Shown here: in pieces, positions 21,924-34,806 of the stretch
How the letters are laid out: each line of letters starts with the position of its first letter
Position numbering within the stretch: position 1 is the stretch's first letter
NCBI GenBank assembly: GCA_003168335.1
Contig: PMSM01000002.1
Coordinates: forward strand, 1-64,000
Direction: 5' to 3'
Source of the DNA: Blastocatellia bacterium
Lineage (GTDB): Bacteria; Acidobacteriota; Blastocatellia; Pyrinomonadales; Pyrinomonadaceae
Length of the DNA stretch: 64,000 bases
Translations under genes and position numbers: made by a program
Notes under the pieces: generated by a model
Told to the model about the DNA's origin: nothing
What the model saw: only the letters and a program-made list of their open reading frames with translations
The model's database searches: none

Positions 21924-22417
21924 GCACCGCCATTGAAGCGAGGCGAAATAGTAGAGTCGGTAATTTTCGCCGCACCTAAACGCCACAAACCTCAGTTTGC
22001 GTGATTTCTCTCGGACCTCGCTTTAGATCGCAGGCCCGAAGGGCCGACATGCAATAGCCACGCCCGCAAGGGCGTGGATCAGAAGCTTATCAAGACAAAT
22101 GAGCGCCGATCGTGGTGCGCCACAAGACAATGATTGATGACATCACGTTGGCATGAAGTGCCGGCCCGTCGGGCTTAAGCTCAGGAAACCACACACCCTC
22201 TGCGCGACAATCCCAAATTGTCCCACCACCACCATTGCCCTACACCTCACTGAAGTAAGAGGCTAACGAGAAACCACCCTTTGAGATTCGAACTTAACAA
22301 CTAAGACCCGCTCTCGCTTCTTCGAGGGCACAACACGCACGGCACAACTGTTGCTCAGGTACTTCACCGACGAGGGCCGCGACGTCTCCTTCAGCGCGGC
22401 AAGTAAGTAACAACCTG

Positions 22418-22668: not shown

Positions 22669-23832
22669 ATGTCCACATGTAACGAAAACCAATCAAGCCC
22701 CGCTCTGCTCGCGCCCGATACGATTTTACAAAGCCGCTATCGCGTGGTTCGACAACTTGGCAGGGGCGGAATGGGCGCGGTCTATGAAGCAATCGATCTT
22801 CGCCTCGGCCACACTGTGGCGCTGAAGCAGACCCTGACGAATGACGAAGAGCAGTGGAAACAATTTGAGCATGAAGCGCGTCTGATGGCCTGGCTCAATC
22901 ATCCGGTCCTGCCGCGAGTTAGTGATTACTTTACTGAGGGCCACCGCGCGTTCTTCGTCATGCAGTTTGTCGCCGGCTCTGACCTGGCGGCAATACTCGC
23001 ACAACAGCCCGGACCGCTGCCGCGAAACGCCGTAGTCGCCTGGGCCGATCAGTTGCTTGACGCACTCATCTACCTGCACACGCACGAACGGCAAATTATT
23101 CATCGCGATATCAAACCTCATAATCTGAAAATCACTCCGACCGGCCAGATAGTTCTGCTCGACTTTGGGTTGGCCAAGACACAGTCGGCGGATCCTTCGG
23201 GCTCGATATCCTGCACCAGCGTCTTTGGGTACACGCCGCGCTATGCGCCGCTCGAGCAAATTCAGGATACGGGCACGAGTCCGCAGAGCGACATCTATGC
23301 CCTGGGAGCGACGCTGTATCATTTGCTCACGGGAGTGAAACCGCCCGATGCGCTGGCGCGGGCCACGGCGTTGGTCAGTGCGCGACCGAATCCCTTAAAG
23401 CCGGCCAACGAAGTCAACCCGGCGGTTGGTCTGGAACTCGCCGAAATTTTAACCCGCGCAATGGCCCAGAATCCGGATGAGCGTTACAGCAGTGCCGCTG
23501 AATTTCGCGAAGCACTTCGCCAGATTGGCCGCGTTGATCCAAGCGAAGTGGAGTATGTTGCCCATCACGCTGAGATTGATTCGACGGTTGTGGAAACAGG
23601 AGAGACGACCATTGTCAGGTCTATCCGTCTGGCTCCAACTGGCAGGCTCGGGTCGCACGCGATCGCCGCGATGTTCGTCATTCTGCTCACCGCGTTCGGC
23701 GTTTTCTGTAGTTACTATCCCTGGAAGATTCCGCCTGCAAACCTTCAGCAATCGATCTATACAAATAGCGCGACTGCCACACCGGTCACGGTGCCGCCGG
23801 CCAGGTCCCCCACGCGAGTCACGCAACGGTGA
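22669..23832 (+). CDS. Ser/Thr protein kinase with C-terminal membrane anchor
   Basis: This 387-residue Hanks-type kinase has a glycine-rich loop GRGGMG near residue 31, the ATP-binding Lys in VALKQT, the catalytic loop HRDIKPHN near residue 144, DFGLAK, and an activation segment ending in TPRYAPLEQ. A single hydrophobic segment near residues 328-345 (AIAAMFVILLTAFGVF) precedes a short Pro/Thr-rich tail, so the kinase domain should be cytosolic with the tail outside. It has no sensor such as PASTA or TPR. It stands alone between two terminator-like hairpins, so it is probably monocistronic. Substrates are unknown. Its place beside the two-component block suggests, but does not prove, cross-talk. 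Confidence 0.92.
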   Translation: MSTCNENQSSPALLAPDTILQSRYRVVRQLGRGGMGAVYEAIDLRLGHTVALKQTLTNDEEQWKQFEHEARLMAWLNHPVLPRVSDYFTEGHRAFFVMQFVAGSDLAAILAQQPGPLPRNAVVAWADQLLDALIYLHTHERQIIHRDIKPHNLKITPTGQIVLLDFGLAKTQSADPSGSISCTSVFGYTPRYAPLEQIQDTGTSPQSDIYALGATLYHLLTGVKPPDALARATALVSARPNPLKPANEVNPAVGLELAEILTRAMAQNPDERYSSAAEFREALRQIGRVDPSEVEYVAHHAEIDSTVVETGETTIVRSIRLAPTGRLGSHAIAAMFVILLTAFGVFCSYYPWKIPPANLQQSIYTNSATATPVTVPPARSPTRVTQR

Positions 23833-23900
23833 ACGCCGCCCGTACCAGAGCTAATTCATCGGGTGGTTGATCCAAATTCGATTAGACCAGGAAAAAATAG

Positions 23901-23934
23901 AAAAGGCCGGGCCCTCCCACAAGCCTGGCCTTTT
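23901..23934 (+). terminator. Intrinsic terminator after the Ser/Thr kinase
   Basis: AAAAGGCCGGGC pairs with GCCTGGCCTTTT over 12 bp with one G-U, around a 10-base loop. A-rich and T-rich sides allow it to work in both directions. It lies 69 bases after the kinase stop. Confidence 0.8.
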
Positions 23935-24069
23935 CCTCACAGCTTTAGGGGCTGTGTTTTTTGGGCGGAGACATTCAGCCTCGATGCTTGTGTCCTCACC
24001 ACACAAGCGACGCCCGGATTCTCGCTATTCTACTCCCAAAAATAAATTCGTCAATGTAGCGTTGAATAG

Positions 24070-24264
24070 GGTACTGGTTCAGTTTGAGCCAAAGGTCGAT
24101 CTTCTGCTGGGAGCGCGGACGTCTCGTCCGCACTGAGCGCGGAGCGCGAACAGTTATTGCTGCCAGAAGCTCGAAAAAGGGAGCGTGCTTCGCACGCTGT
24201 GCGGACGGGACGTCCGCGCTCCCAGCGTCATCTTCATTGGTGGGACTGAAACTGAACCAGTACC
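24070..24264. mobile_element. MITE-like element with 16-bp perfect terminal inverted repeats
   Basis: GGTACTGGTTCAGTTT at 24070 is exactly complemented by AAACTGAACCAGTACC ending at 24264. A second inverted repeat inside, built on GGGAGCGCGGACGTC, forms a long hairpin. TTGAAT occurs on both sides (24062-24067 and 24265-24270) and may be a target duplication, though two extra bases separate the left copy from the element. It encodes no transposase, so it is non-autonomous if mobile. Confidence 0.6.
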
Positions 24265-24424
24265 TTGAATTGCCGAAAACAGAACGGAAGCGAATTGGCC
24301 GTTCCGGTTTCTAATACCGTTCCACGTTTTCGTCGTAGGTGTTGGCGCTAGCTGCGATGGTCGCGAAATGCCACTGCTTCAATCCCAAGCCATTCCGGGC
24401 ATTTTGTGAGCTTTCCTGCTCACT

Positions 24425-24745
24425 TTGTCAGTTTTCTTCGTCGTTTTCTTAACCTTGCTCGTGGCAAACAAGGGTTTGTTTGTCGTTTCCCTAACCTTGT
24501 TCGGGGCAGACAAATCTTTGTTGGTCGTTTTCTTAGCCTTGCTCGGCGCAAACAAAGCCTTACTTGTCGCTTCCTTAACCTTGTTTGGGGCAAACAAAGC
24601 TTTGTTGGTCGCTTCCCTAACCTTGTTCGGGGCAGACAAAGCTTTGTTGGTCGTTTTCTTAACCTTGCTGGGCACAAACAAAGCTTTACTTGTCGCTTCC
24701 TTAACCTTGTTTGGGGCAAACAAGGCTTTGTTCGTCGCTTTGTAA
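24425..24745. repeat. 42-bp tandem minisatellite (about 7.5 copies), possibly coding
   Basis: A 42-base unit repeats about seven and a half times, with a higher-order period of three units (126 bases). Because 42 is a multiple of three, several frames stay open. The minus frame (24379-24723) would give a Lys-rich 14-residue repeat such as KVKKTTNKALSAPN ending in a basic tail, reminiscent of histone-H1-like proteins. Its only upstream start is TTG at 24723, with no ribosome site and a stop just upstream. The plus frame gives a hydrophobic repeat. Whether any protein is made is undecided. Confidence 0.7.
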
Positions 24746-24889
24746 CACTGCTTTGGCGTCTTTACAGCGATGCTAAATCAGGAGGCTTGCATGCCTAGCC
24801 GCAAAACAGCGCTGCTTTGCCGCTTTGCAGCGCTACAAAATCGCCAGGCCAATAAAGAAGTTTTGCATCCAATTCTCAGCTGGGTGGCG

Positions 24890-25567
24890 TCACCGGTCCA
24901 GGACAGTGATGTCAGTGACTGGATGGATCTCCCATGCAGTTGCTCGCCAATTGTCACGTTTTCTCGGCGCTGTATTCTCCGATTCATCAATGTGCTCAAA
25001 ATCGAACAGCATCCAACCTGTAATTTTCACCCGATGGCCCTTCAGTGCCAGGAGGGCTTGCGTTGACCAGTCCAGTCCCCGGGCGAGCGCCAGAGCTCGC
25101 AGTCTCGGCGTTACTTCGACAATCATCCTACGCGTCAGACCCGAATCGTCCATGCGGCGAACGATTTCAATATGAGTGTCGCGGTCGGCCAGGTCCTGTG
25201 CCATGCAGTTCGTTGATTCAATCCCCCCGGGCTTTACGTCGAAGACGATCCCTTCGATCTCAGCCGCCGAGCTATCCGGCCAGCGCCGCGTATCTTTACC
25301 GGTCGCAAGTACGGCCTCCAAAGTGATCGCCGGATTGATGTTTTTTGGTTTCGGGCTGTTCCAGCGGTTCTTCAAGTAATTGAGTTGCTGGACAATCGGC
25401 GAAGCGCGTGAGCCGGTTAATCCACATTGGTGGTACATGATTTGGGCGTTGGCCGGTCCACCACACGCGGCGACCGCGAGCAGGGCGATTGCAAATACAT
25501 TGATCTGAGAAGAGTGCTTCAGTGCGTCTCCAGAGCAGCAACTCGAAATAGCTCTGTTCCTGTGCAA
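24890..25567 (-). CDS. Secreted protein of unknown function
   Basis: The open frame of 225 residues has a hydrophobic stretch (INVFAIALLAVAAC) and a likely signal peptidase site after PANA, so the mature protein would begin QIMYHQC. The mature part of about 180 residues contains several charged stretches and two or three Cys, and I do not recognise a family. The only start upstream of the signal peptide is TTG at 25567. There is no strong Shine-Dalgarno site, so the N-terminus is uncertain. It lies just outside the tRNA-bounded interval. It could be periplasmic or extracellular. Confidence 0.6.
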   Translation of the reverse strand: MHRNRAISSCCSGDALKHSSQINVFAIALLAVAACGGPANAQIMYHQCGLTGSRASPIVQQLNYLKNRWNSPKPKNINPAITLEAVLATGKDTRRWPDSSAAEIEGIVFDVKPGGIESTNCMAQDLADRDTHIEIVRRMDDSGLTRRMIVEVTPRLRALALARGLDWSTQALLALKGHRVKITGWMLFDFEHIDESENTAPRKRDNWRATAWEIHPVTDITVLDR

Positions 25568-25674
25568 GTCATCGGCGAGCGACCTTGATGCGCGAATATC
25601 CCGCGAAGAAAATCAACCGATTGGTCACATTATTATTCCACCAATCTTCAAGGTCAATGACGTGACATCCTGAG

Positions 25675-25923
25675 TTATTGATAATTAATGGTGCACCCGG
25701 CACGACTCGAACGTGCGACCCCCTGATTCGTAGTGCGTTCAGGGGCACTCCAGCAGGTTATGGCTCGCCATCCCATTTGGTTGGCGACCGCTTGCATCGC
25801 CTGCACGCCGCGTTCGAACCTTCGGACTCTCGATCTCACACCTAGAAAGACGATGCCGCCGATGCCCACGAACATCAACACAAATAAAAGTAGTATTCCA
25901 ACGAACGGAAGCAATTCAGTCAT
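25675..25923 (-). pseudogene. Membrane protein gene truncated into a tRNA-Arg fragment
   Basis: The ATG at 25923 has a good ribosome site (AAGGTGA) and opens a protein with one membrane segment (residues 5-30, GILLLFVLMFVGIGG) and a basic linker. The family-like part runs to about residue 63 (SAPER). From there the frame reads directly through the sense strand of a tRNA-Arg 3' fragment, giving TTNQGVARSSRAGCT and a stop shortly after. The original C-terminal part is therefore lost, and I cannot find it elsewhere in the window. I do not recognise the family. It may still be translated as an 82-residue membrane peptide. Confidence 0.6.
25686..25734 (-). repeat. 49-bp direct repeat: 3' part of tRNA-Arg(ACG), att-like site
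   Basis: These 49 bases are identical to 33530-33578 and in the same orientation. They cover the tRNA from the anticodon loop to the encoded CCA end plus three bases beyond. A copy of a tRNA 3' end at this distance downstream of the intact gene is the classic footprint of an element integrated at a tRNA. The breakpoint at the anticodon loop matches a known crossover position of tyrosine integrases. Integration itself is inferred. Confidence 0.75.
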
Positions 25924-25982
25924 TCGCTTTCACCTTTCCTCTAGTCCACGGACTTGACGCTCAGCCGCGCTGGCATTCCGAA

Positions 25983-26465
25983 CTAAAAAGGCAGTGCCTC
26001 TTCGAGATTGGAAGTCGTCTTAGGGAAGCTCGAACTGGCGAGGCATTGTAGTGAGCCGTTTGACCACATAATTGTCTTCCCATCGCCAAAGGTGAGGCGC
26101 TGTCCTACGTTCGTCCCGCCTTTCGTCTTTGACTCCAGTGAAAAGTTATGTTTGTTTGCAAAGGCTTCCACCGCCGCGGCGGCATCCCGAGATGAAGGAA
26201 AGTTGGCGACTGTGAGTTCTACCGGCATGGAGATCGTAACGGCTTGCATGGTATAGCTTGCCTTGACGGCATCTGTCGCACTTTCGAACTCGGTGGTTTG
26301 TGACGTAGACAATTTGAACTTAATCAAACCCACGCTCGCTTCTTTCGGCAGCAAGTCCTTAACCGAGCCTTTGTAAGGATCGAGGTTTTGGCCACCCGTC
26401 ATGCTACATAGCCGGCAGGCGAAAATGAGCAAGAGGACCGGCGCTAGACTCGAGACAATCTTCAT
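25983..26465 (-). CDS. Small exported protein, unknown function
   Basis: This 160-residue protein starts at an ATG with a strong ribosome site (GAGGAG 8-9 bases upstream). The N-terminus is a signal peptide (VSSLAPVLLLIFAC), possibly a lipoprotein signal at Cys17 or Cys20, though neither fits the lipobox perfectly. The mature part contains a stretch resembling a small alpha/beta domain (MPVELTVANFPSSRDAAAAVEAF, then GQRLTFGDGKTIMW). I do not recognise the family. It is one of four minus-strand exported-protein genes with AGGAG-type ribosome sites inside the tRNA-bounded interval. Confidence 0.75.
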   Translation of the reverse strand: MKIVSSLAPVLLLIFACRLCSMTGGQNLDPYKGSVKDLLPKEASVGLIKFKLSTSQTTEFESATDAVKASYTMQAVTISMPVELTVANFPSSRDAAAAVEAFANKHNFSLESKTKGGTNVGQRLTFGDGKTIMWSNGSLQCLASSSFPKTTSNLEEALPF

Positions 26466-26675
26466 TTGTTTCTCCTCAGTGGCAAGGCAGTTTCGGCATA
26501 GTGGGCACTAATCGGCCATGCCTTTCGACGACGAATGGAATGTCAGCATATTCTCTGACAACAGACGGTGACAACCTGGACTGTCCTTGTAGTTCACAAC
26601 GCCGCCGTGAGCGTGCGCCAATAGCGAGGATTGACCCCCGCGAGTGACGCACCCTTGATTGAGCAGGCAAGGGAA

Positions 26676-27245
26676 CTACCTTGTCTTGATCTTAAACCAC
26701 TTTCCTTTCATCTGAACTACCTTGTAATCAGGAGTGGCCAACACGCCTCGAAAATTGCCACCGCCCTGCGCTATAACGTTGCCGCCGCCCTGCGCTATTA
26801 CACCCGCGCCGTCGGACGTCAGCAGGTTGCCGCCGCCTTGTGATACGACCCTGCCAACTTCGAGCTTGATCGACGCCCCCGAGCGCAAATCTGTTACGTC
26901 TTGAAACCGACGGCCGCTAGAGGTCGAAACTGCACCGAGCCGCAAGGTTTTGCGCTGGTCAGCTCGGTATTCTCTGACCTGTCTACTCATGTCGAGCGCT
27001 TTGTGAACCTGGCTAAAATCATAATTTGACGGATCACAGTCTACGCCACCTTGCGGTTTGGACATCCCCGCGGTTTCATCCCACAGACCCCAACTGATCC
27101 TTGGGTCCGAACAGGGGTTGTTGGTGTACTTCTGAGTGTCCACGGATGACATGGCCCACTGCTGAGCATTCGCGCTCACCGAAGACAGCGACAGCAGAAC
27201 GCCCGCCGCCATAAGTGTGAAAAGCATCGTTCTGAACTTTGCCAT
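26676..27245 (-). CDS. Secreted Gly-rich-repeat protein, unknown function
   Basis: This 189-residue protein starts at an ATG with AGGAG 9 bases upstream. The signal peptide (LFTLMAAGVLLSLSSVSANA) is cleaved before QQWAMSS. The mature N-terminal half has two Cys that could form a disulphide. The C-terminal half has a short repeat, QGGGN, three times in about 30 residues (VVSQGGGNLL, VIAQGGGNVIAQGGGN), suggestive of an extended or beta-helical segment. The last residues are Lys-rich. Function is unknown. It neighbours two other secreted unknowns on the same strand. Confidence 0.75.
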   Translation of the reverse strand: MAKFRTMLFTLMAAGVLLSLSSVSANAQQWAMSSVDTQKYTNNPCSDPRISWGLWDETAGMSKPQGGVDCDPSNYDFSQVHKALDMSRQVREYRADQRKTLRLGAVSTSSGRRFQDVTDLRSGASIKLEVGRVVSQGGGNLLTSDGAGVIAQGGGNVIAQGGGNFRGVLATPDYKVVQMKGKWFKIKTR

Positions 27246-27366
27246 AATTGATTCTCCTTTTCGAGTTTGACTGAATCACTCTGCGGACCCTCAGCGCAGA
27301 GCAAGTTGGAATTCATAACGCTGTGGAGAGCGGTCGCTCCCTTCGGCCACGTCGTAATAAGCCCCA

Positions 27367-28443
27367 CTAACAGCGCACCACGCCGAGGTACTTGAGACGC
27401 AGCACGTACTTCCCGTCGTCCAGCGTCATCTCATTTCCGTTCCGCGTTATCTTGAAGTCACCAAAGAGCGCGCCGTCTCCGGACTTCATCACCAATCCAG
27501 CGCCCTGCATTTGGTACTTGCCGCCCTGCATTGAGCCTCCGTAATGCAGCATTGCCCAACTGCCGTCGTTGCAAAACTGCATGTCCGGCGGCGAGCCGCT
27601 CTGCTTCTCGGCCTCACCTTTCGTGGTTATCGAGAGCAATGCCCAGCGGGTGCCGGCCAAATTCTCCGGAGCATTAGTCGTTTCCGGCGAAGCTCCGCTA
27701 GTCTTGGTTGACGAAGGTCCAGGCGCATTGGTAGCCGGTGTCAGGTTCGAGACCGTGTTGCTCTCAGGAGCTGAAGTTGCTGTTTGAGGTTGAGCAGTCT
27801 CTGGCCCGGTTGGTTGGACTGTTGAAACGTTAGCTGATCCGTTGCCCTTTAAGGATTGTGCTGTTTGCGTAGCCTGACTCTTAACGGATTGAACGGTTTG
27901 ATTGGCTTGGGCGCTGGTTGCCTGAACAGTCTGAGCTTGCTTGTTCGCTTCCGTGTTCGCCTTGTTGAGCTTTGCAGTCGCCTCGTCCATCTTCTGGCTC
28001 AGCTTGCTCAAGAAGCCCTTCTTCTTGGGTGTGGGCGATGAACTGTTGGCAGTGCTCGTCAACGCTTGATCCGTAGCAGGCTGACTATTCGACTGCGCCG
28101 CGTTGGTGTCGCCGCCAGCCGTTGTAGCGCCGTTCCGATAGTTGGCGCGCACTGCAACAATCAAATCGTCAGAGGCACCAGCGTCGTGCAACTCTCTTTC
28201 GTCTGCCGGGTTGGGTTGAAAATCGACGCCCTTCTGCCCGACGATCTGAATCAACTCCGGCTGAGTAGAATCGTTCAGCGTCAAGAGTTTCAGCAGCCTC
28301 TTTTTGTTGAGCGGTTCGCCGGCTGGTTTAGCTTGCCCAACGCTTGAATCAGTTGCCGGCGGTTTTTGCCCAAGCGCACTCGAGGCAAATAGTGCTGTGC
28401 AGACAATCACGAAAACGATCGTCAGAACTCTTTCATGGTTCAT
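27367..28443 (-). CDS. Secreted Ala/Gln/Thr-rich protein with a lipocalin-like C-terminal domain
   Basis: This 358-residue protein has a strong ribosome site (GGAGGTGA). Its signal peptide ends near ALG, with the mature start at QKPP. Residues 45-105 form a small conserved-looking domain (LLKLLTLND, then DDLIVAVRANYR). A long low-complexity linker, about 110-255, is rich in Ala, Gln, Thr and Ser and includes a predicted coiled coil (LSQKMDEATAKLNKAN). The C-terminal 95 residues (AGTRWALLSI, MQFCNDGSWAMLHYGG, KYVLRLKYLG) resemble small beta-barrel domains of lipocalin or META type, a tentative assignment. It is probably periplasmic or surface exposed. It is transcribed away from the sigma/kinase pair in the same interval. 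Confidence 0.7.
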   Translation of the reverse strand: MNHERVLTIVFVIVCTALFASSALGQKPPATDSSVGQAKPAGEPLNKKRLLKLLTLNDSTQPELIQIVGQKGVDFQPNPADERELHDAGASDDLIVAVRANYRNGATTAGGDTNAAQSNSQPATDQALTSTANSSSPTPKKKGFLSKLSQKMDEATAKLNKANTEANKQAQTVQATSAQANQTVQSVKSQATQTAQSLKGNGSANVSTVQPTGPETAQPQTATSAPESNTVSNLTPATNAPGPSSTKTSGASPETTNAPENLAGTRWALLSITTKGEAEKQSGSPPDMQFCNDGSWAMLHYGGSMQGGKYQMQGAGLVMKSGDGALFGDFKITRNGNEMTLDDGKYVLRLKYLGVVRC

Positions 28444-28474
28444 TGGTCACCTCCACGCGACGTCTGAGATTCGT

Positions 28475-29239
28475 CTACGGTTTCACTACAAATTCCTGTT
28501 TCTTTCCGTCTTTATTTGGCCCGCTGGCGATCCCGCACACCCAGAGATTTGTGGCATCGGCAAAGCAGGTAAAGGTGGCTTCTTTATCAGTGATCTGATC
28601 GTTGCGGGAACGATAGAACGTCTTCTGGTTCCATTTCACGTGCACCGGATAGACGAGGGTATCGGGTGTGCCCTGTCCGGAATCGATGTACGTCCTCCAG
28701 CGATGCGGAGCGCCGAGATTGAACTCACTGATGTCCATCGTGGTCGCACCATCCTGTCCAACTGGAGAAGGTTTCTCATACAGGCAGCGGATGAGTTTCT
28801 TTGCTAAATCAACCGGAGGCGGAGAGCCGTTTCGGCCGCCGTGCTTGAGGTTCTCGCAATCCAGGAGCTCGCGGTCAGCCAGCACGGTATTGTTGTCATC
28901 TACGCGAAGTTTGTCAGTCAGAATTGTCGGCGCGGCTCCACCTAAAGCTCGAAAACCACATTCCTGAGAGTAGATAGGTCTGGTGACGATGCGTGGCGCT
29001 TTTCCGGGGAGCGGGTCGACCTGAACTCGGTAGAACATTCCAACGCCGGTGTTCACCTCAATAATCGTTCCCTTGGACGGGATCGCGTATTGGGCGCCAA
29101 GGCACGCGGCATTCTCTGAAAATTCGACGCGGTCGCCCTCCTTGTATTTGGGGGTCTGCGCGGAGGCTAAGGAGGTCGAGAGGCCGAACGCCATAATTGC
29201 GATGACCGTAATGATTAACCGATGTGATGTTCTCTTCAT
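28475..29239 (-). CDS. Secreted protein of unknown function
   Basis: I start this 254-residue protein at the ATG at 29239, which has AGGAGA 7-8 bases upstream. A TTG 18 bases earlier overlaps that ribosome site. The signal peptide (LIITVIAIMAFGLSTSLASA) is followed by an N-terminal beta-rich region (KYKEGDRVEFSENA, GTIIEVNTG) that resembles small SH3-like barrels found in acidobacterial secreted proteins. The C-terminal half contains HVKWNQKTFYRSRND and EATFTCFADATNLWVC. Several Cys could form disulphides in the periplasm. The family is unknown. It is the first gene of the minus-strand exported-protein series and is divergent from the ECF sigma gene. Confidence 0.72.
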   Translation of the reverse strand: MKRTSHRLIITVIAIMAFGLSTSLASAQTPKYKEGDRVEFSENAACLGAQYAIPSKGTIIEVNTGVGMFYRVQVDPLPGKAPRIVTRPIYSQECGFRALGGAAPTILTDKLRVDDNNTVLADRELLDCENLKHGGRNGSPPPVDLAKKLIRCLYEKPSPVGQDGATTMDISEFNLGAPHRWRTYIDSGQGTPDTLVYPVHVKWNQKTFYRSRNDQITDKEATFTCFADATNLWVCGIASGPNKDGKKQEFVVKP

Positions 29240-29537
29240 GTTTGTTTCTCCTGTCAAAAAAGCCTTTCTGCCGCGGTTCCAGTCAGGTGCTCCTGGTGGC
29301 CGCCAAGTTCATTCAGAAGTTTTCCCTCTATCTATAAGGGCGTAATCCTGAGCCGAATCTTTCCAACCTCGCAGGTCAGAATTGAAATTGACCGGATTTG
29401 CGAGTAGGCTCTCGCTCAACGAGCGGGGCCCGACAGACTGACGCAGTTCATCCTCTGGGCTGCTTACCTTCCGGGTGTTTTATCGCGCCGCGCGACTGCA
29501 CCGACGACGCAACCGTTTCCGGAACCAGACTTGAACC

Positions 29538-30119
29538 GTGAACCCTGTGGCTGATTTCCCCCAAACAGGCGTAACCCAACTGCTTTTGCAGGCGAGTGCC
29601 GGCGATCAGAAAGCGGTCGACGCGCTCTTCGAGAAGGTCTATGGCGAGCTGCGCGGCCTCGCGAGGAACTACTTACAGGACGAGCGCCCGGATCACACGC
29701 TACAAGCCACGGCGCTGGTGCACGAAGCCTATCTGCGTTTGGTTGGGTCAGAGCAAATCGAATGGCAGAATCGCGCGCAGTTTTTCAGCATCGCCGCGCA
29801 GGTGATGCGACATATTCTGGTTGATCACGCGCGGCGGCACTCCGCAGACAAACGCGGCAGTGGTGAACGCAAACTTTCGCTCGACGAAGCCATCAGCTTC
29901 GCGGAAGAGCATGACGTGAATCTGGTCGCGCTCGACGATGCGCTTACCACGCTCGCAGCTCTCGATGAAGAGCAAAGCCGCATAGTCGAGCTGAGGTTCT
30001 TTGGCGGACTTTCGATCAAAGAGATCGCGTCCGTCCTCGACATCTCTGAAACGACAGTGAGTCGCAAATGGAATACAGCCAAGCTGTGGCTGCACGATCA
30101 GATTGCGCCGAGGAAATGA
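29538..30119 (+). CDS. ECF-subfamily RNA polymerase sigma factor
   Basis: This 193-residue protein matches the acidobacterial/planctomycete ECF group (TIGR02999 type). The sigma-2 region contains ALVHEAYLRLVG and FFSIAAQVMRHILVDHAR. The sigma-4 helix-turn-helix reads IVELRFFGGLSIKEIASVLDISETTVSRKW. There is no anti-sigma gene nearby; the kinase gene starts 8 bases after its stop. In this sigma class, control by a co-encoded Ser/Thr kinase is the usual model. The GTG start at 29538 has no strong ribosome site, but the protein begins at the usual place for the family. Targets are unknown; the divergent secreted-protein genes are obvious candidates. Confidence 0.9.
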   Translation: MNPVADFPQTGVTQLLLQASAGDQKAVDALFEKVYGELRGLARNYLQDERPDHTLQATALVHEAYLRLVGSEQIEWQNRAQFFSIAAQVMRHILVDHARRHSADKRGSGERKLSLDEAISFAEEHDVNLVALDDALTTLAALDEEQSRIVELRFFGGLSIKEIASVLDISETTVSRKWNTAKLWLHDQIAPRK

Positions 30120-30126
30120 CTGAGTC

Positions 30127-32877
30127 ATGAATGCTGAACGACACCAACGCGTAATGGATCTGCTGGGCCAGGCACTCGACCGCGCGACCAATCAACGCGC
30201 CGCCTGGACAGAGGCCGCTTGCGCCGGCGATCAATCTCTGTGCGACGACGTGATGCGACTGCTGGCACAGCAAACGTCTGCGGCTCAGTTTCTGGAAGAG
30301 TCGCCTCTGGCCGCAGCCGTAGGAACGGAGAAGTCCGACGCACGGTCGCTTGTGGGTGACCACATTGGTTCGTACAAAATCATCAGTGAGATTGGACGCG
30401 GCGGCATGGGCACAGTTTATCTTGCCGCGCGCGACGACCAGCAATTCACCAGACGTGTTGCGGTAAAACTCATTAAGCGCGGCATGGATACTGATTTCGT
30501 CGTGCAGCGTTTTCGCAACGAGCGCCAGATACTCGCCAATCTGGATCATCCGAACATCGCGCGACTAATCGACGGCGGCGCAACTGAAGCAGACTTACCT
30601 TACTTCATCATGGAGTATGTCGAAGGCCAGCCGATCACCGAGTATGCGAATGCGAACGATTTAACTACCACTGAGCGACTCAAACTCTTTCGCACGGTTT
30701 GCTCTGCGGCACAGTACGCGCATCAGAATCTGGTCATTCATCGCGACATCAAGCCATCGAACATTTTGGTGACGAAAGACGGCGAGCCGAAGCTCTTGGA
30801 TTTCGGCATTGCCAAACTCCTGCAAGTGGATACGTCAGAGGAGGCTGAGCTAACAGCAACCGCCGTGCGCGTGATGACGCCCGAATACGCTAGTCCTGAA
30901 CAAGTGAAGGGCGAGCGCGTCTCCACAGCGACTGACGTCTATTCCCTGGGAGTGCTGCTTTACGAGTTGCTCACGGGCCGTCGTCCTTATCGGGTCAAGA
31001 GTCGCCAACCCGAAGAGATTGCCAAGGCTATTTGCGAGCAGGAACCGGAGAAGCCTAGCCAGGCGATCAGTAGGCAGCCGTCAGTCGTCAGCAGGCAGAG
31101 AGACGGACAAAGAACTAATCCAATCATCAAGGGGAAATCCTTGCGCGGTGATCTCGACAACATTGTACTGATGGCTTTGCGGAAAGAACCGACTCGCCGC
31201 TACGCCTCAGTCGAACAATTCTCCGAAGACATTCGCCGCCATCTTGAAGGCTTACCCGTCATTGCGCGCCAAGCCACGCTCTCATATCGAACATCAAAGT
31301 TTGTTCGGCGCAACAAACTTGGCGTTGCCGCCGCGGCCCTGGTTCTCTTGACGTTGGGCGGTGGGATCGTGGCGACGACCGTCGAAGCGCGACGCGCCAA
31401 CCGGCGCTTCAACGATGTACGCAGACTCGCCCATTCAGTGTTGTTCGACTATCACGATCAAATCGCGGCGCTGCCCGGCTCGACTAAGGTGCGAGAGAGA
31501 TTGGTCAAAGACTCTCTTGAATATCTCGACAATTTGTCGCAAGAGGCCGGCAGTGATCGACCGTTAATGCGAGAGCTGGCGGCGGCTTACGAAAAGGTGG
31601 CTGCTGTGCAGGGCGGCATTGCGGTGTCAAACCGCGGCACCTTGCTTTCTGAGTCGAATCTCGGCGACACACGAGGGGCTATAGCCAGCCTAGGCAAGGC
31701 GTTGGTATTACGTGAAAGATTGGCGGTGCTTGAACCGAACAATCGCGACATTCGGAACGAGTTGGCGGATTGCTATGTAGGTCTTGGTGGGCAATATTTG
31801 TTTACTGGTCCTCCGGAGAAGGCAGTGGAGTACCAACGCAAGGCTATTCCTCTTGTTGAGACGTCGCTGGCCGCCGATCCAGCAAACGAAAGACTTCAAT
31901 ATGAACTGTTCGGGATATATCTGGGTATGGCTAAGGCCCTGGGCAATCCCGCCGTGGCGAACCTGGGCGACACGCAGGGTGCCCTCGAATTCATGAACAA
32001 AGCTCAGCTGCTTGCGGAGAAACTGGTAGCGGACCATCCAACCGATGTGGATTATCAAGTGGCCCTCGGATCTTTTTACAACTTGTCCGGTTCGATGCTG
32101 GGTGCGATTGGCAAGGAGAAGGAGGCTTTGGAAAGTGAACTGAAAGCGGTGGCCATTGATCAGCGTCTCGTAGATCGCGATAGCAGCAACACGATGCTGC
32201 GGAGAGAACTCGCTGTCCAGGTTGGCAATGCGGGCGGCAGCATGCTCAAGCTGGGTGATAACTTCGGGGCCCTGGAAAAATTCAAGCAAGCAGTGACAAT
32301 CTATGAATCACTGGTTGCCGCCGACCCGAATGATGCGAACATCCGCAGGAATTCCGCTGTCGGTTATCGCAACCTCGGCAGTGCTGTAGGGACAAGCAAT
32401 GTGGTCGAAGCGCTGAGCGCCTTCCACAAGGCGCTGCAAATCTTCGCCGAACTGACGGCCAAGGATCCGAACAACGCCGACTTTCGGCGACAGTGGGCCT
32501 TTACCTATCTTTCGCTGAGCCGCTTTCAACCGAAAGCCGACGATTTGGACGGCGCAGTGGACAGCGCAATTCAGGGCATCAAGATCGACGAAGCATTGGT
32601 CGCGTCGTCACCGACAAACGCGAGCGCGCGCAACACCCTCGCGCTCTTGTACTCACAACTGGGCGCGTCTCATACAGCGCTCGCAGCAAAGGCAGGTACA
32701 AGCAAGCAGACCGCACAGTGGCAGGCAGCCAAAGACTCATATCAAAAGAGTTTGGACATCTATCAGGACATGAAGAGCAACGGAACGCTCAAAGGTGCGG
32801 ATGCAGGTAAGCCTGACGAACTCGCGAAAGAAATCGCCAAGTGCGATGCCGTATTGGAAAGAGTCAAAGCAAAATAG
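30127..32877 (+). CDS. Ser/Thr protein kinase with TPR-like extracytoplasmic tail
   Basis: This is a 916-residue protein. An N-terminal region of about 75 residues, typical of sigma-linked acidobacterial kinases, precedes the kinase domain (about 80-355). That domain has GRGGMG, VAVKLIKRG, HRDIKPSN (His205, Asp207) and DFGIAK. One membrane segment lies near residues 398-416 (LGVAAAALVLLTLGG). The rest, about 430-910, is a run of helical TPR-like repeats (LGDTQGALEFMNKAQLLAEKLV, FGALEKFKQAVTIYESLV), probably outside the membrane. It forms an operon with the ECF sigma gene 8 bases upstream. The likely role is sensing through the TPR tail and controlling the sigma factor by phosphorylation, which is an inference from family context. 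Confidence 0.92.
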   Translation: MNAERHQRVMDLLGQALDRATNQRAAWTEAACAGDQSLCDDVMRLLAQQTSAAQFLEESPLAAAVGTEKSDARSLVGDHIGSYKIISEIGRGGMGTVYLAARDDQQFTRRVAVKLIKRGMDTDFVVQRFRNERQILANLDHPNIARLIDGGATEADLPYFIMEYVEGQPITEYANANDLTTTERLKLFRTVCSAAQYAHQNLVIHRDIKPSNILVTKDGEPKLLDFGIAKLLQVDTSEEAELTATAVRVMTPEYASPEQVKGERVSTATDVYSLGVLLYELLTGRRPYRVKSRQPEEIAKAICEQEPEKPSQAISRQPSVVSRQRDGQRTNPIIKGKSLRGDLDNIVLMALRKEPTRRYASVEQFSEDIRRHLEGLPVIARQATLSYRTSKFVRRNKLGVAAAALVLLTLGGGIVATTVEARRANRRFNDVRRLAHSVLFDYHDQIAALPGSTKVRERLVKDSLEYLDNLSQEAGSDRPLMRELAAAYEKVAAVQGGIAVSNRGTLLSESNLGDTRGAIASLGKALVLRERLAVLEPNNRDIRNELADCYVGLGGQYLFTGPPEKAVEYQRKAIPLVETSLAADPANERLQYELFGIYLGMAKALGNPAVANLGDTQGALEFMNKAQLLAEKLVADHPTDVDYQVALGSFYNLSGSMLGAIGKEKEALESELKAVAIDQRLVDRDSSNTMLRRELAVQVGNAGGSMLKLGDNFGALEKFKQAVTIYESLVAADPNDANIRRNSAVGYRNLGSAVGTSNVVEALSAFHKALQIFAELTAKDPNNADFRRQWAFTYLSLSRFQPKADDLDGAVDSAIQGIKIDEALVASSPTNASARNTLALLYSQLGASHTALAAKAGTSKQTAQWQAAKDSYQKSLDIYQDMKSNGTLKGADAGKPDELAKEIAKCDAVLERVKAK

Positions 32878-33529
32878 AATCCATTGCCTTGTGCTTTCTT
32901 TACGATTCAAGATTCACCGCGCTCGGTCAACTGACGTTGATATGGAATTCCGTTTGTTGTCTTCCGGCCCAATTGACCTCGTCTTTGAGATTCCAATCTG
33001 GAATCTCAAGACCGACTTTCAAGAATAGCGTCCGAGATGGTGGGAGTCATTAATGCCGATAACGGGCGGGCCTGACTGCTCGTTACTGTTATGGGATAAG
33101 AGGATTCTCTTCTCAACACCCGCCTCAGGATGGGATGGACAACGGACCTAATATCCGTTGCGCAGTTCGAAGCTCAATCCCGGGCGTCTGTAAATTATTG
33201 AGAAGGATTCGACGGCGGAGTCGAACCCGTACGGGATTGCTCCCAACGGATTCTGAGTAAGACCAAGGCCAGTTTGCCAGATCTCACCAAACGAGATGAA
33301 CCAATATTTACCGGACCGGCAGCCGTCAAATTCATGCCTTTTTTGTCCAACGGCTCGACCGTGTTCCAGAAAAGTTGTCATAGCTTAGGCGCAAGAAAGA
33401 CCCCGCGCCGTCTGCCGCTGTCACTAACTTAACGATTCCATTGGTCAACAGTGGGTGGTATGAGGCGCGCGACCTGCTGATAAAAATCAGGAGGTGCCGC
33501 GCGTGCTAACTGATTGCTTGAATTGAAAA
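32878..33529. other. 650-base region with no supportable gene
   Basis: The space between the TPR kinase and the tRNA has only short frames with no ribosome sites or recognisable domains. It is the right-hand end of the tRNA-bounded interval. An integrase gene, intact or decayed, might be expected here, but I see no recognisable integrase motif. Confidence 0.45.
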
Positions 33530-33578
33530 TAATGGTGCACCCGGCACGACTCGAACGTGCGACCCCCTGATTCGTAGT
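33530..33578 (-). repeat. 49-bp direct repeat inside tRNA-Arg (att-like site, tRNA side)
   Basis: This is the copy of the 49-bp repeat embedded in the intact tRNA-Arg gene, from just beyond the CCA end to the anticodon loop. Its partner lies 7,844 bases to the left in the same orientation. Together they bound the candidate island. Confidence 0.75.
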
Positions 33579-33609
33579 CAGGTACTCTATCCAGCTGAGC
33601 TACGGGTGC
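33533..33609 (-). tRNA. tRNA-Arg (anticodon ACG)
   Basis: The minus strand from 33609 folds as a standard cloverleaf. The 7-bp acceptor stem is GCACCCG with CGGGTGC. The D arm contains AGCTCAGCTGGATAGAG. The anticodon stem is CCTGA/TCAGG with loop CTACGAA, giving anticodon ACG, and the T arm contains GTTCGAGTC. Discriminator A and an encoded CCA follow. ACG normally becomes ICG and reads CGU, CGC and CGA. Its 3' part is duplicated at 25686-25734. Confidence 0.97.
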
Positions 33610-33762
33610 TGATTGGTTTAGTGAATGGCTAAATCGAGGACAAGTTTAAGGTTTAAGGTTTCAAGTTTCAAGTTCACCTCGCCCCGAAGTAGGGTCAGGT
33701 TGCCTTGTCCACCCAGCTGCAGATAACTCGCAGCTGGGAGCTCGAAATCTGAAATTAAGTCT

Positions 33763-34806
33763 TTACCGCGCGAAGTATCCCGGCTTAGTGCTGGCCACCA
33801 GATCGGCACGAGCTATCTCGACGCGGATCTCGCGCCACTTCCCGTCACGAGCGCTCGGGTTCGGAGGCTGGTAGGCGATGGTGTAAAGCGACCGCAGCTC
33901 CGCGGCTACCTGCGCGTACAGCTTAGCAAGATCGTCCAGGCGGTGAATCTCATGAATACGCCCGCCGGTGCGGTCGGCCATCAGTTGCAGACGCGTGCGC
34001 GCCGCTCCGTACATCGCGGTGATTGAAGGGTCCGGAAGTGGTAGACGCGTCGGGTCGCCGGAAGGCAGAGCCAGAGGAAAAATCGTCACGCCTTCCCGGT
34101 CCGAGGTGTTCAATACTGAGACTACTTCAGAGTTTGCTTCCGCTTTGATGGCCGTGCTGACTTCCGCATTGGAAGCTTTCGAGATTATCGCCCGATCAGA
34201 GTTTCGTGCCTCAGTATCCAACCCATCAGTTAAAGCCACGATGGCTTTGCGCCGCTTGCCTTCGTGGGCCAGCTCTTTCAGCGAGTACTTCAAAGCATCA
34301 TACAGAGGCGTTTCACCGGCGCCAGTGGCCAGAACATTGATCGCATAAGCAACCTTGTTACGATCGGTGGTGAATCCGAGCAGCGACTTAACTCCCTTGC
34401 CGCTGAACTCAACGACGGCAACTCGATCTTCCGGGCTGAGCGCATCCAGGAAGCGCGTTGCGGCCGTTCGGATCTGTTGACGAAAGTTTATCGTCGAGCC
34501 GGACATGTCGAGCAGCAAGACCAGACTGAACGGCGCATCCGTCGGTTCGAAATGCAGGATGGGGCGCCGCACGCCGTCTTCATAGATCGCGAAGTCATTA
34601 GACGACAAGGTCGTGACTGGGTGTCCCTGTTTGTCCACGACTCCTACATTCAATTGCACCAGGGATGTGTCGGTGATGATTGTTTCGTCTTGCTGTTGGG
34701 CATGGATCCCGCAGGGAATTGCGATCAATAGCGCGGCGAACAACAGGACTAACGTCGCCTGTCGTGCGAGATTAGAGACTGAAAGTGCAGAAGGGAATGA
34801 AGTCAT
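33763..34806 (-). CDS. Secreted VWFA-related protein (acidobacterial type)
   Basis: This 347-residue protein has a signal peptide (LVLLFAALLIAIPCGIHA). A short beta-sandwich region (VQLNVGVVDKQGHPVTTLSSNDFAIYEDG) precedes a von Willebrand factor A domain from about residue 94. The metal-ion-dependent adhesion site DMSGS starts at Asp100, and a later ALTDGLDT motif supplies further ligands. This matches the VWFA-related domain family expanded in Acidobacteria. It is probably periplasmic or surface-exposed and mediates metal-dependent protein interactions; its partner is unknown. The ATG at 34806 has only a weak ribosome site. It stands alone next to the tRNA gene. Confidence 0.9.
   Translation of the reverse strand: MTSFPSALSVSNLARQATLVLLFAALLIAIPCGIHAQQQDETIITDTSLVQLNVGVVDKQGHPVTTLSSNDFAIYEDGVRRPILHFEPTDAPFSLVLLLDMSGSTINFRQQIRTAATRFLDALSPEDRVAVVEFSGKGVKSLLGFTTDRNKVAYAINVLATGAGETPLYDALKYSLKELAHEGKRRKAIVALTDGLDTEARNSDRAIISKASNAEVSTAIKAEANSEVVSVLNTSDREGVTIFPLALPSGDPTRLPLPDPSITAMYGAARTRLQLMADRTGGRIHEIHRLDDLAKLYAQVAAELRSLYTIAYQPPNPSARDGKWREIRVEIARADLVASTKPGYFAR

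Follow-up and report, generated by a model that had tools for sequence, protein, structure and literature searches.

In the 64,000-nt window analysed here (contig PMSM01000002.1 of a soil Blastocatellia bacterium, family Pyrinomonadaceae), an interval of ~7.8 kb is very probably flanked by the scar left when a Pyrinomonadaceae tyrosine-integrase element, now decayed, integrated site-specifically into tRNA-Arg(ACG). The tRNA gene is intact and, by both ARAGORN and Rfam, the only one of the window. Its 3' part recurs as a perfect 49-bp direct repeat in the same orientation, which extends no further on either side and of which the window has just two copies (Table 1). The identity runs from tRNA nucleotide 32, at the 5' edge of the anticodon loop, to 3 nt beyond the CCA. 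The copies are 7.84 kb apart start to start, and the interval lies 3' of the tRNA. The initial annotation had described a repeat breaking at the anticodon loop and a 7.8-kb interval downstream of the tRNA 3' end, and both were confirmed by ARAGORN, the exact repeat search and the coordinates. It had also listed as cargo exported unknowns, an ECF sigma factor and a TPR-tailed Ser/Thr kinase, with no integrase. Pfam and NCBIfam searches agreed with this, the export signals being judged by eye. Neither an integrase nor a hidden remnant of one was recognized in the interval by PF00589, or by tblastn of the integrase from the relative G129 against 23801-33700 (best E = 21). Four points, taken up below, went beyond the initial annotation: the element arm adjoining the repeat, the related site on C7 of this genome, an insert of 9.7 kb instead of 7.8 kb against the best empty site, and an interval of unremarkable composition.

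Table 1 Features of the interval and its flanks in the window.
Feature	Coordinates	Strand	Evidence or remark
Flanking kinase gene; next to tRNA-Arg in G004	22669-23832	plus	73% in L037 (G004)
1.85 kb beyond the right repeat, not present in G004	23833-25685		ORF 24890-25567, 42-bp tandem repeats, hairpin
82-codon ORF reading through the arm; first 54 codons precede the arm	25675-25923	minus	ORF list
attR-side copy of the 49-bp direct repeat	25686-25734	minus	Exact repeat
Conserved element right-end arm core	25735-25766	minus	Reads GAGCCATAACCTGCTGGAGTGCCCCTGAACGC on the minus strand; pattern and alignment
160-aa protein of no known family, exported judging from its N-terminus	25983-26465	minus	Signal judged by eye
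189-aa protein, exported by eye	26676-27245	minus	28% over 158 aa, E 2.6e-10, Bryobacteraceae MAG
358-aa low-complexity protein, exported by eye	27367-28443	minus	No family match above cut-off
255-aa protein, exported by eye; best module marker	28475-29242	minus	12 of 119 family genomes (own genome counted)
ECF sigma factor, ECF43-like (QATA motif, Thr58)	29538-30119	plus	PF07638 195 bits; TIGR02999 221.7 bits
Hanks-type Ser/Thr kinase with hydrophobic segment and TPR tail	30127-32877	plus	PF00069 1e-49 and TPR models
Possible remnant of the element left end, TTATTTTCAAT directly following CCA	33522-33532	minus	First 10 nt recur at other sites
attL-side copy of the 49-bp direct repeat (tRNA 3' part)	33530-33578	minus	Exact repeat
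Intact tRNA-Arg(ACG), integration target	33533-33609	minus	ARAGORN; Rfam RF00005 64.1 bits
VWA-domain gene, flank on the tRNA 5' side, conserved neighbor	33763-34806	minus	PF13519

Just inside the right-hand repeat copy sits a 32-bp arm that ties the window to a family of elements. We screened 119 family genomes, allowing up to 3 mismatches, with a pattern of 26 specified positions, two of them two-fold, that spans 25732-25764. It was found at 14 places in nine of these genomes, with 0 mismatches in the window; the reversed pattern, used as a control, gave 0 matches in the same 119 genomes. At all 14 places, the window included, the sequence after the arm was a tRNA 3' part that begins at the anticodon loop (alignment, assigned by eye). 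Ten of these parts belonged to tRNA-Lys(CTT) and four to tRNA-Arg(ACG) (window, C7 of the same genome, G034 and G135). The tRNA piece was shortened or worn at four Lys places (G001:C175, G124:C257, G127:C335 and G132:C831). A long arm of ~100 nt was present at 11 of the 14 places, and the core alone in the window, G034 and G132:C831. Searching with the long arm as DNA gave 17 places in 11 of the 119 genomes; among the additional ones, G127:C57 had the arm core without a tRNA piece and three others were left-half matches. In IMG/VR there were 0 exact matches of a 19-nt pattern.

The window's own genome (G000; 5.16 Mb in 14 contigs) carries related sites. The best genome-wide matches to the 49-bp sequence were the two window copies and one further site, at C7:199855-199932 (L004:19855-19932), where the similarity to the window continues past the tRNA part into the element side. 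This third site is an orphan right end, made of a long arm and a tRNA-Arg 3' part, with no tRNA gene in the surrounding 40 kb (L004, L005); the other half of this island may have moved away by rearrangement. Two other places in G000 fit the tRNA-Arg repeat pattern at 3 mismatches. In addition, 49-bp copies of the tRNA-Lys(CTT) 3' part lie at C12:9242-9290 and C2:323752-323800, the intact gene being at C12:64164-64250, and these copies are likely further island scars.

A complete element of ~8 kb was found in G129, with tRNA-Lys(CTT), an integrase, an excisionase-type protein (TIGR01764 44 bits, cut-off 28.8), cargo, and the arm at the other end. The integrase is intact (364 aa, PF00589 112 bits), antisense and adjoining the tRNA. 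The cargo included an AlbA_2-type protein and a ParE-type toxin. Past the right end there was a C-terminal piece of another integrase of this kind (69% identity), so that G129 represents a tandem. Three further elements carried the arm at one end: G132 (6.9 kb, tRNA-Lys), G135 (2.8 kb, tRNA-Arg) and G034 (4.0 kb, tRNA-Arg). In each of them, the attL-side tRNA sequence adjoined no more than a C-terminal piece (~110 residues) of an integrase, with 81-84% identity to the G129 enzyme; G034 also retained an integrase stretch in another frame. The last ~100 integrase codons alone were kept in four of five integrase-bearing left ends. Identical breakpoints of these fragments were ruled out, their start points being different. 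Alongside the tRNA-Arg element of G034 there was a VWA-domain gene, as at the window's tRNA, and G135 had a similar one (by eye, from the ORF list).

In G132, the outer of two tandem arm elements (L140:9214-18383) encoded a terminase large subunit, a primase and an excisionase-like protein, so that the family may include phage- or satellite-like members. The IMG/VR sequence 3300009101_000214 (L221; 14.1 kb, 5.6 kb read) encoded an integrase 92% identical to that of G129 (residues 151-362), adjoining a tRNA-Lys 3' half and followed by a different arm and an ATPase-like protein, the latter by eye. The idea that every tyrosine integrase of the genus lies 3' of a tRNA proved wrong: an antisense position just 3' of a tRNA was seen in nine of 19 integrase loci.

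This anatomy, together with the known behavior of tyrosine integrases, suggests how the scar may have formed. The attP of a small Pyrinomonadaceae tyrosine-integrase element, composed of the arm and a tRNA 3' half, would have recombined at the anticodon-loop region of tRNA-Arg(ACG). The element's own 3' half would have completed the tRNA gene, and the 3' half that it displaced would have become the 49-bp copy at the far end. Loss of the integrase and of the end-repeat motifs would have followed.

An insert-free site was present in the congener G004, where the order is VWA gene, tRNA-Arg and a homologue of the flanking kinase gene, whose stop codon is 17 nt from the tRNA end. The G004 contig (10.3 kb) had no second tRNA-Arg copy. 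The window exceeds the G004 site by 9.7 kb, of which 7.8 kb lies between the repeats and 1.85 kb outside the right repeat. The empty site anticipated in the initial annotation exists as flanks without the insert, whereas the exact right-hand joint is unmatched because of the additional 1.85 kb. A third tRNA copy as outer edge of this stretch was rejected, the best match there being 9 bp. Within the stretch, an array of 42-bp tandem repeats (24398-24775) lies just outside the right repeat and is absent at the G004 site, and an 86% inverted repeat with 43-nt arms (24106-24226) resembles a small hairpin repeat element. On the minus strand at 22032-22077 there is an Acido-Lenti-1 RNA (RF01687, 48 bits).

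The 3' side of tRNA-Arg differs among the other congeners. In G003 and G006, the homologue of the flanking kinase gene adjoins tRNA-Lys(CTT) (L053:13630-13705 and L055:11552-11627) and not tRNA-Arg(ACG), as it does in G004 (L037:6036-6112). Here, two tRNA integration sites of a single genus have been rearranged with each other. Another gene set 3' of tRNA-Arg is common to G003 and G001, and the G000 orthologue of one of its genes is on C9. From the differing neighbors in G003, G006 and G001 it follows that the 3' flank has been rearranged within the genus. As this applies outside G000 and G004, the empty site is that of one draft genome, of ~850 contigs.

We compared 16 tRNA-Arg(ACG) loci of relatives (L032, L034-L037, L060-L069 and L146), some of which end at contig edges. 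Of the 15 loci tested for the VWA gene (L146 was not among them), 14 had it at the tRNA or close by. At the thresholds used, none of the 16 loci had the interval's sigma factor or exported-protein genes. Kinase matches above 250 bits were also absent from them; weaker ones were filtered out, because such kinases abound. A second partial tRNA copy lay nearby in three of the 16 (G034, G025 and G135). Relatives carrying the same genes without the right-hand repeat, which would have spoken against an island, were thus not met with in these loci. The arm family, the empty site of G004 and the missing sigma and exported-protein genes at the relatives' loci give good support to the proposed decayed island at a tRNA.

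The interval's sigma factor and kinase genes are separated by 7 bp. The kinase has 916 aa, with HRD at 205, DFG at 225 and, by eye, a hydrophobic stretch at ~400-417. According to the parts of PMC13147305 available to us, ECF43 sigma factors carry an uncharged Q-x-T-A motif and become active when an adjacent Hanks kinase phosphorylates its threonine. The window's sigma factor has QATA at residues 56-59, in agreement with an uncharged QTTA-like consensus with a phospho-threonine, and adjoins a Hanks-type kinase gene. The pairs EcfP-PknT and EcfK-PknS, as presented in those parts of PMC13147305, share the adjacent kinase gene, the counterpart here being QATA with Thr58. They differ from the window's pair by its TPR tail, the exported unknowns alongside and the Acidobacteriota host. 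By analogy with ECF43, the kinase may phosphorylate the sigma factor at Thr58 on an envelope signal, and the phosphorylated factor would then transcribe the divergent exported-protein genes as its likely targets.

Kinases matching at E <= 1e-150 were found in at least 33 of the 119 genomes, a lower bound because seven candidates per genome were scored, and G000 has a second one (48%). The closest kinase found (59%) is in the congener G006, with one stop inside and a sigma gene beside it; G004 has a partial one (57%). A related sigma gene adjoined the kinase in nine of ten kinase loci, and the tenth, in G004, ends at a contig edge. The presence of such pairs at many loci of the family and of the closest kinase in G006 is compatible with a pair native to the genus. 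When the four exported proteins and the kinase were scanned with PADLOC, the matches were to the kinase domain only, and a defense function of the cargo was rejected.

The four exported-looking proteins had no Pfam or NCBIfam family above its cut-off. We followed the 255-aa protein as marker of the module. In ten of the 11 other family genomes with a homologue, identity was below 60%. Among the congeners, G003 (28%) and G005 (44%) had only distant relatives, and G006 had one of 56%, on a contig other than that of its closest kinase; G004, G001 and G002 gave no match. The closest relatives found (75%) were in two Candidatus Eremiobacterota MAGs, and a third such MAG had a 45% relative at best. 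A 69% homologue was found in the Pyrinomonadaceae MAG SSF56 (G032), with sigma and kinase genes divergent from it as in the window and no tRNA within the 40 kb read. The first 54 codons of the ORF 25675-25923, and the ORF 25983-26465, were considered as homologues of genes beside this SSF56 module and rejected, the similarity not being significant against 500 shuffles. In a Bryobacteraceae MAG a sigma gene, a kinase gene (51% over 915 columns), a homologue of the 255-aa protein (42%) and a weak relative of the 26676-27245 protein stood side by side. The recurrence of sigma and kinase genes beside the 255-aa homologue in two other lineages makes the secretome part of the initial annotation plausible; its control by sigma factor and kinase would follow from the analogy above.

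In the tree of the 255-aa protein, the window, SSF56 and the two 75% Eremiobacterota MAGs formed one clade (97/97), the order inside which is open. Judging from these sequences, transfer between phyla would be the likeliest history of this gene. One of the Eremiobacterota homologues (L197:9001-9765) lies on a 2.37-Mb contig and has 57% GC against 71% in its flanks, which probably reflects a recent cross-phylum transfer. On the second Eremiobacterota contig (7.1 kb), gene and flank are alike in GC, so that it says little. The protein had no match on plasmids, and its structure model (pLDDT 73.5) had no match in PDB at E <= 0.001.

How the cargo came to lie behind the scar can be read in more than one way. 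By a reading to which we give somewhat less than an even chance, the repeat and arm are a true scar, and the sigma, kinase and exported-protein genes are not element cargo but chromosomal or separately acquired genes that a later deletion or rearrangement joined to it. Only 32 bp of the arm is left, directly adjoining the ORF that reads through the junction, which is possibly a gene cut there. The rearranged tRNA-Arg flank in the genus, the orphan attR on C7, the sigma/kinase pairs at many other loci, the kinase and exported-protein relatives of G006 and the native-like composition of the interval (see below) point the same way. Against a late joining, the 255-aa gene is missing or distant in the other congeners and its closest relatives are in another phylum, which suggests that part of the interval was gained at the tRNA-Arg site.

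A broader and rather doubtful proposal treats the arm family as a set of interchangeable ends. The right end and the integrase-proximal left end would be fixed, with interiors and target tRNA (Lys or Arg) changing, and many copies, as cassettes lacking an integrase, would depend for their movement on a few relatives that are complete or phage-like. The window's copy would then have captured a module of sigma factor, kinase and secreted proteins. None of the window's cargo genes was found inside another arm element.

Returning to the decayed integrase element, we looked at its ends and composition. TTGYGAC-type repeats occur ~47 and ~58 nt after the CCA at five other left ends, two in four of them and one in G129; the fifth, on C2 of G000, resembles a left end, but no integrase is proven for it. 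These repeats are absent from the window. Among 15 right ends scanned, a TTTGTTAC-type site was present in nine of the 11 with a long arm and in none of the four with the core only, including the window and G034. The left- and right-end motifs were picked by eye from the very sequences that were scored. The 10 nt TTATTTTCAA following the CCA in the window recur in that position at four tRNA-Lys sites, two in G000 and one each in G132 and G124, and TTATTTTCAAT was absent after the CCA at the tRNA-Arg of all four congeners compared. This is suggestive of a remnant of the element left end at 33522-33532. Having lost the integrase and the repeated end motifs, the window's copy is a fossil, and probably now fixed.

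Atypical composition is common in tRNA-integrated elements, and not required. The composition of the interval, proposed for comparison with its surroundings in the initial annotation, was typical of the genome: the GC content was 0.548 against 0.544, the tetranucleotide distance stood at the 7th percentile of 89 windows, and a compositional island was rejected.

It is quite improbable that the window's copy can still be excised by the integrase of a related element in trans. In favor of it, the two repeat copies match perfectly and the arm core, which lies nearest the crossover, is undamaged. However, the left-end motifs are missing, as is the right-arm motif of nine of the 11 long arms. G000 has 12 PF00589 matches, and the ten compared were at best ~41-42% identical to the G129 integrase, with none of the 81-92% group. 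The integrase-dependent alternative of the initial annotation is accordingly disfavored. Least credible of all is an ancestral interval with the tRNA fragment as an unrelated duplication: the native-like composition would fit, but the fragment bears the element arm, which leads us to reject a separate duplication, the relatives' loci have none of the sigma and exported-protein genes, and in G004 the flanks stand without any insert.

Both the decay of tRNA islands and tandem accretion belong to textbook knowledge, and the scar and the element follow a well-known pattern. As in tRNA islands of tyrosine integrases, the direct repeat is the tRNA 3' part and the tRNA is intact in the window, the G129 integrase is antisense beside its tRNA, and an insert-free site is found in a congener. 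Unlike them, the window's copy has lost its integrase, which is whole in G129 and partial in G034, G132 and G135, and the arm family uses two tRNAs with one conserved right end. CIMEs (cis-mobilizable elements) are described, in the portion of PMC5704250 at hand, as decayed elements that lost integration and transfer genes and kept attL and attR. Membership also calls for descent from an ICE or IME and for mobilization in cis. The window resembles them as so described, with att repeats kept, no integration or transfer genes seen (none of the interval proteins scanned belonged to a transfer family), and tandem accretion in the relatives G129 and G132; it differs in that its end motifs, probably serving mobilization, are gone. 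With Tycheposons, as far as the accessible text of PMC10872708 goes, it shares a cargo region adjoining a tRNA and a size within the 4-200 kb class, and differs by having no tyrosine recombinase at the tRNA. In another acidobacterium, candidate islands with tRNA genes and integrases were reported in the available part of PMC3174227.

The arm element family is apparently undescribed, no account of it having been found in the open-licence literature. As a search key, the right-end arm turns a tRNA repeat without an integrase into a recognizable scar of a specific element family, and reveals fossil islands to which searches by composition or integrase are blind, as happened in the window. One element family has the same end at two tRNA genes, and the gene tree of a secreted protein of the interval mixes phyla. 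As a minor observation, a large regulator, with TPR and receiver parts by eye, occurred in three genomes (L033:10771-12699, L076:13605-15548 and L063:10324-12243), and two of these occurrences are close to tRNA or att sites.
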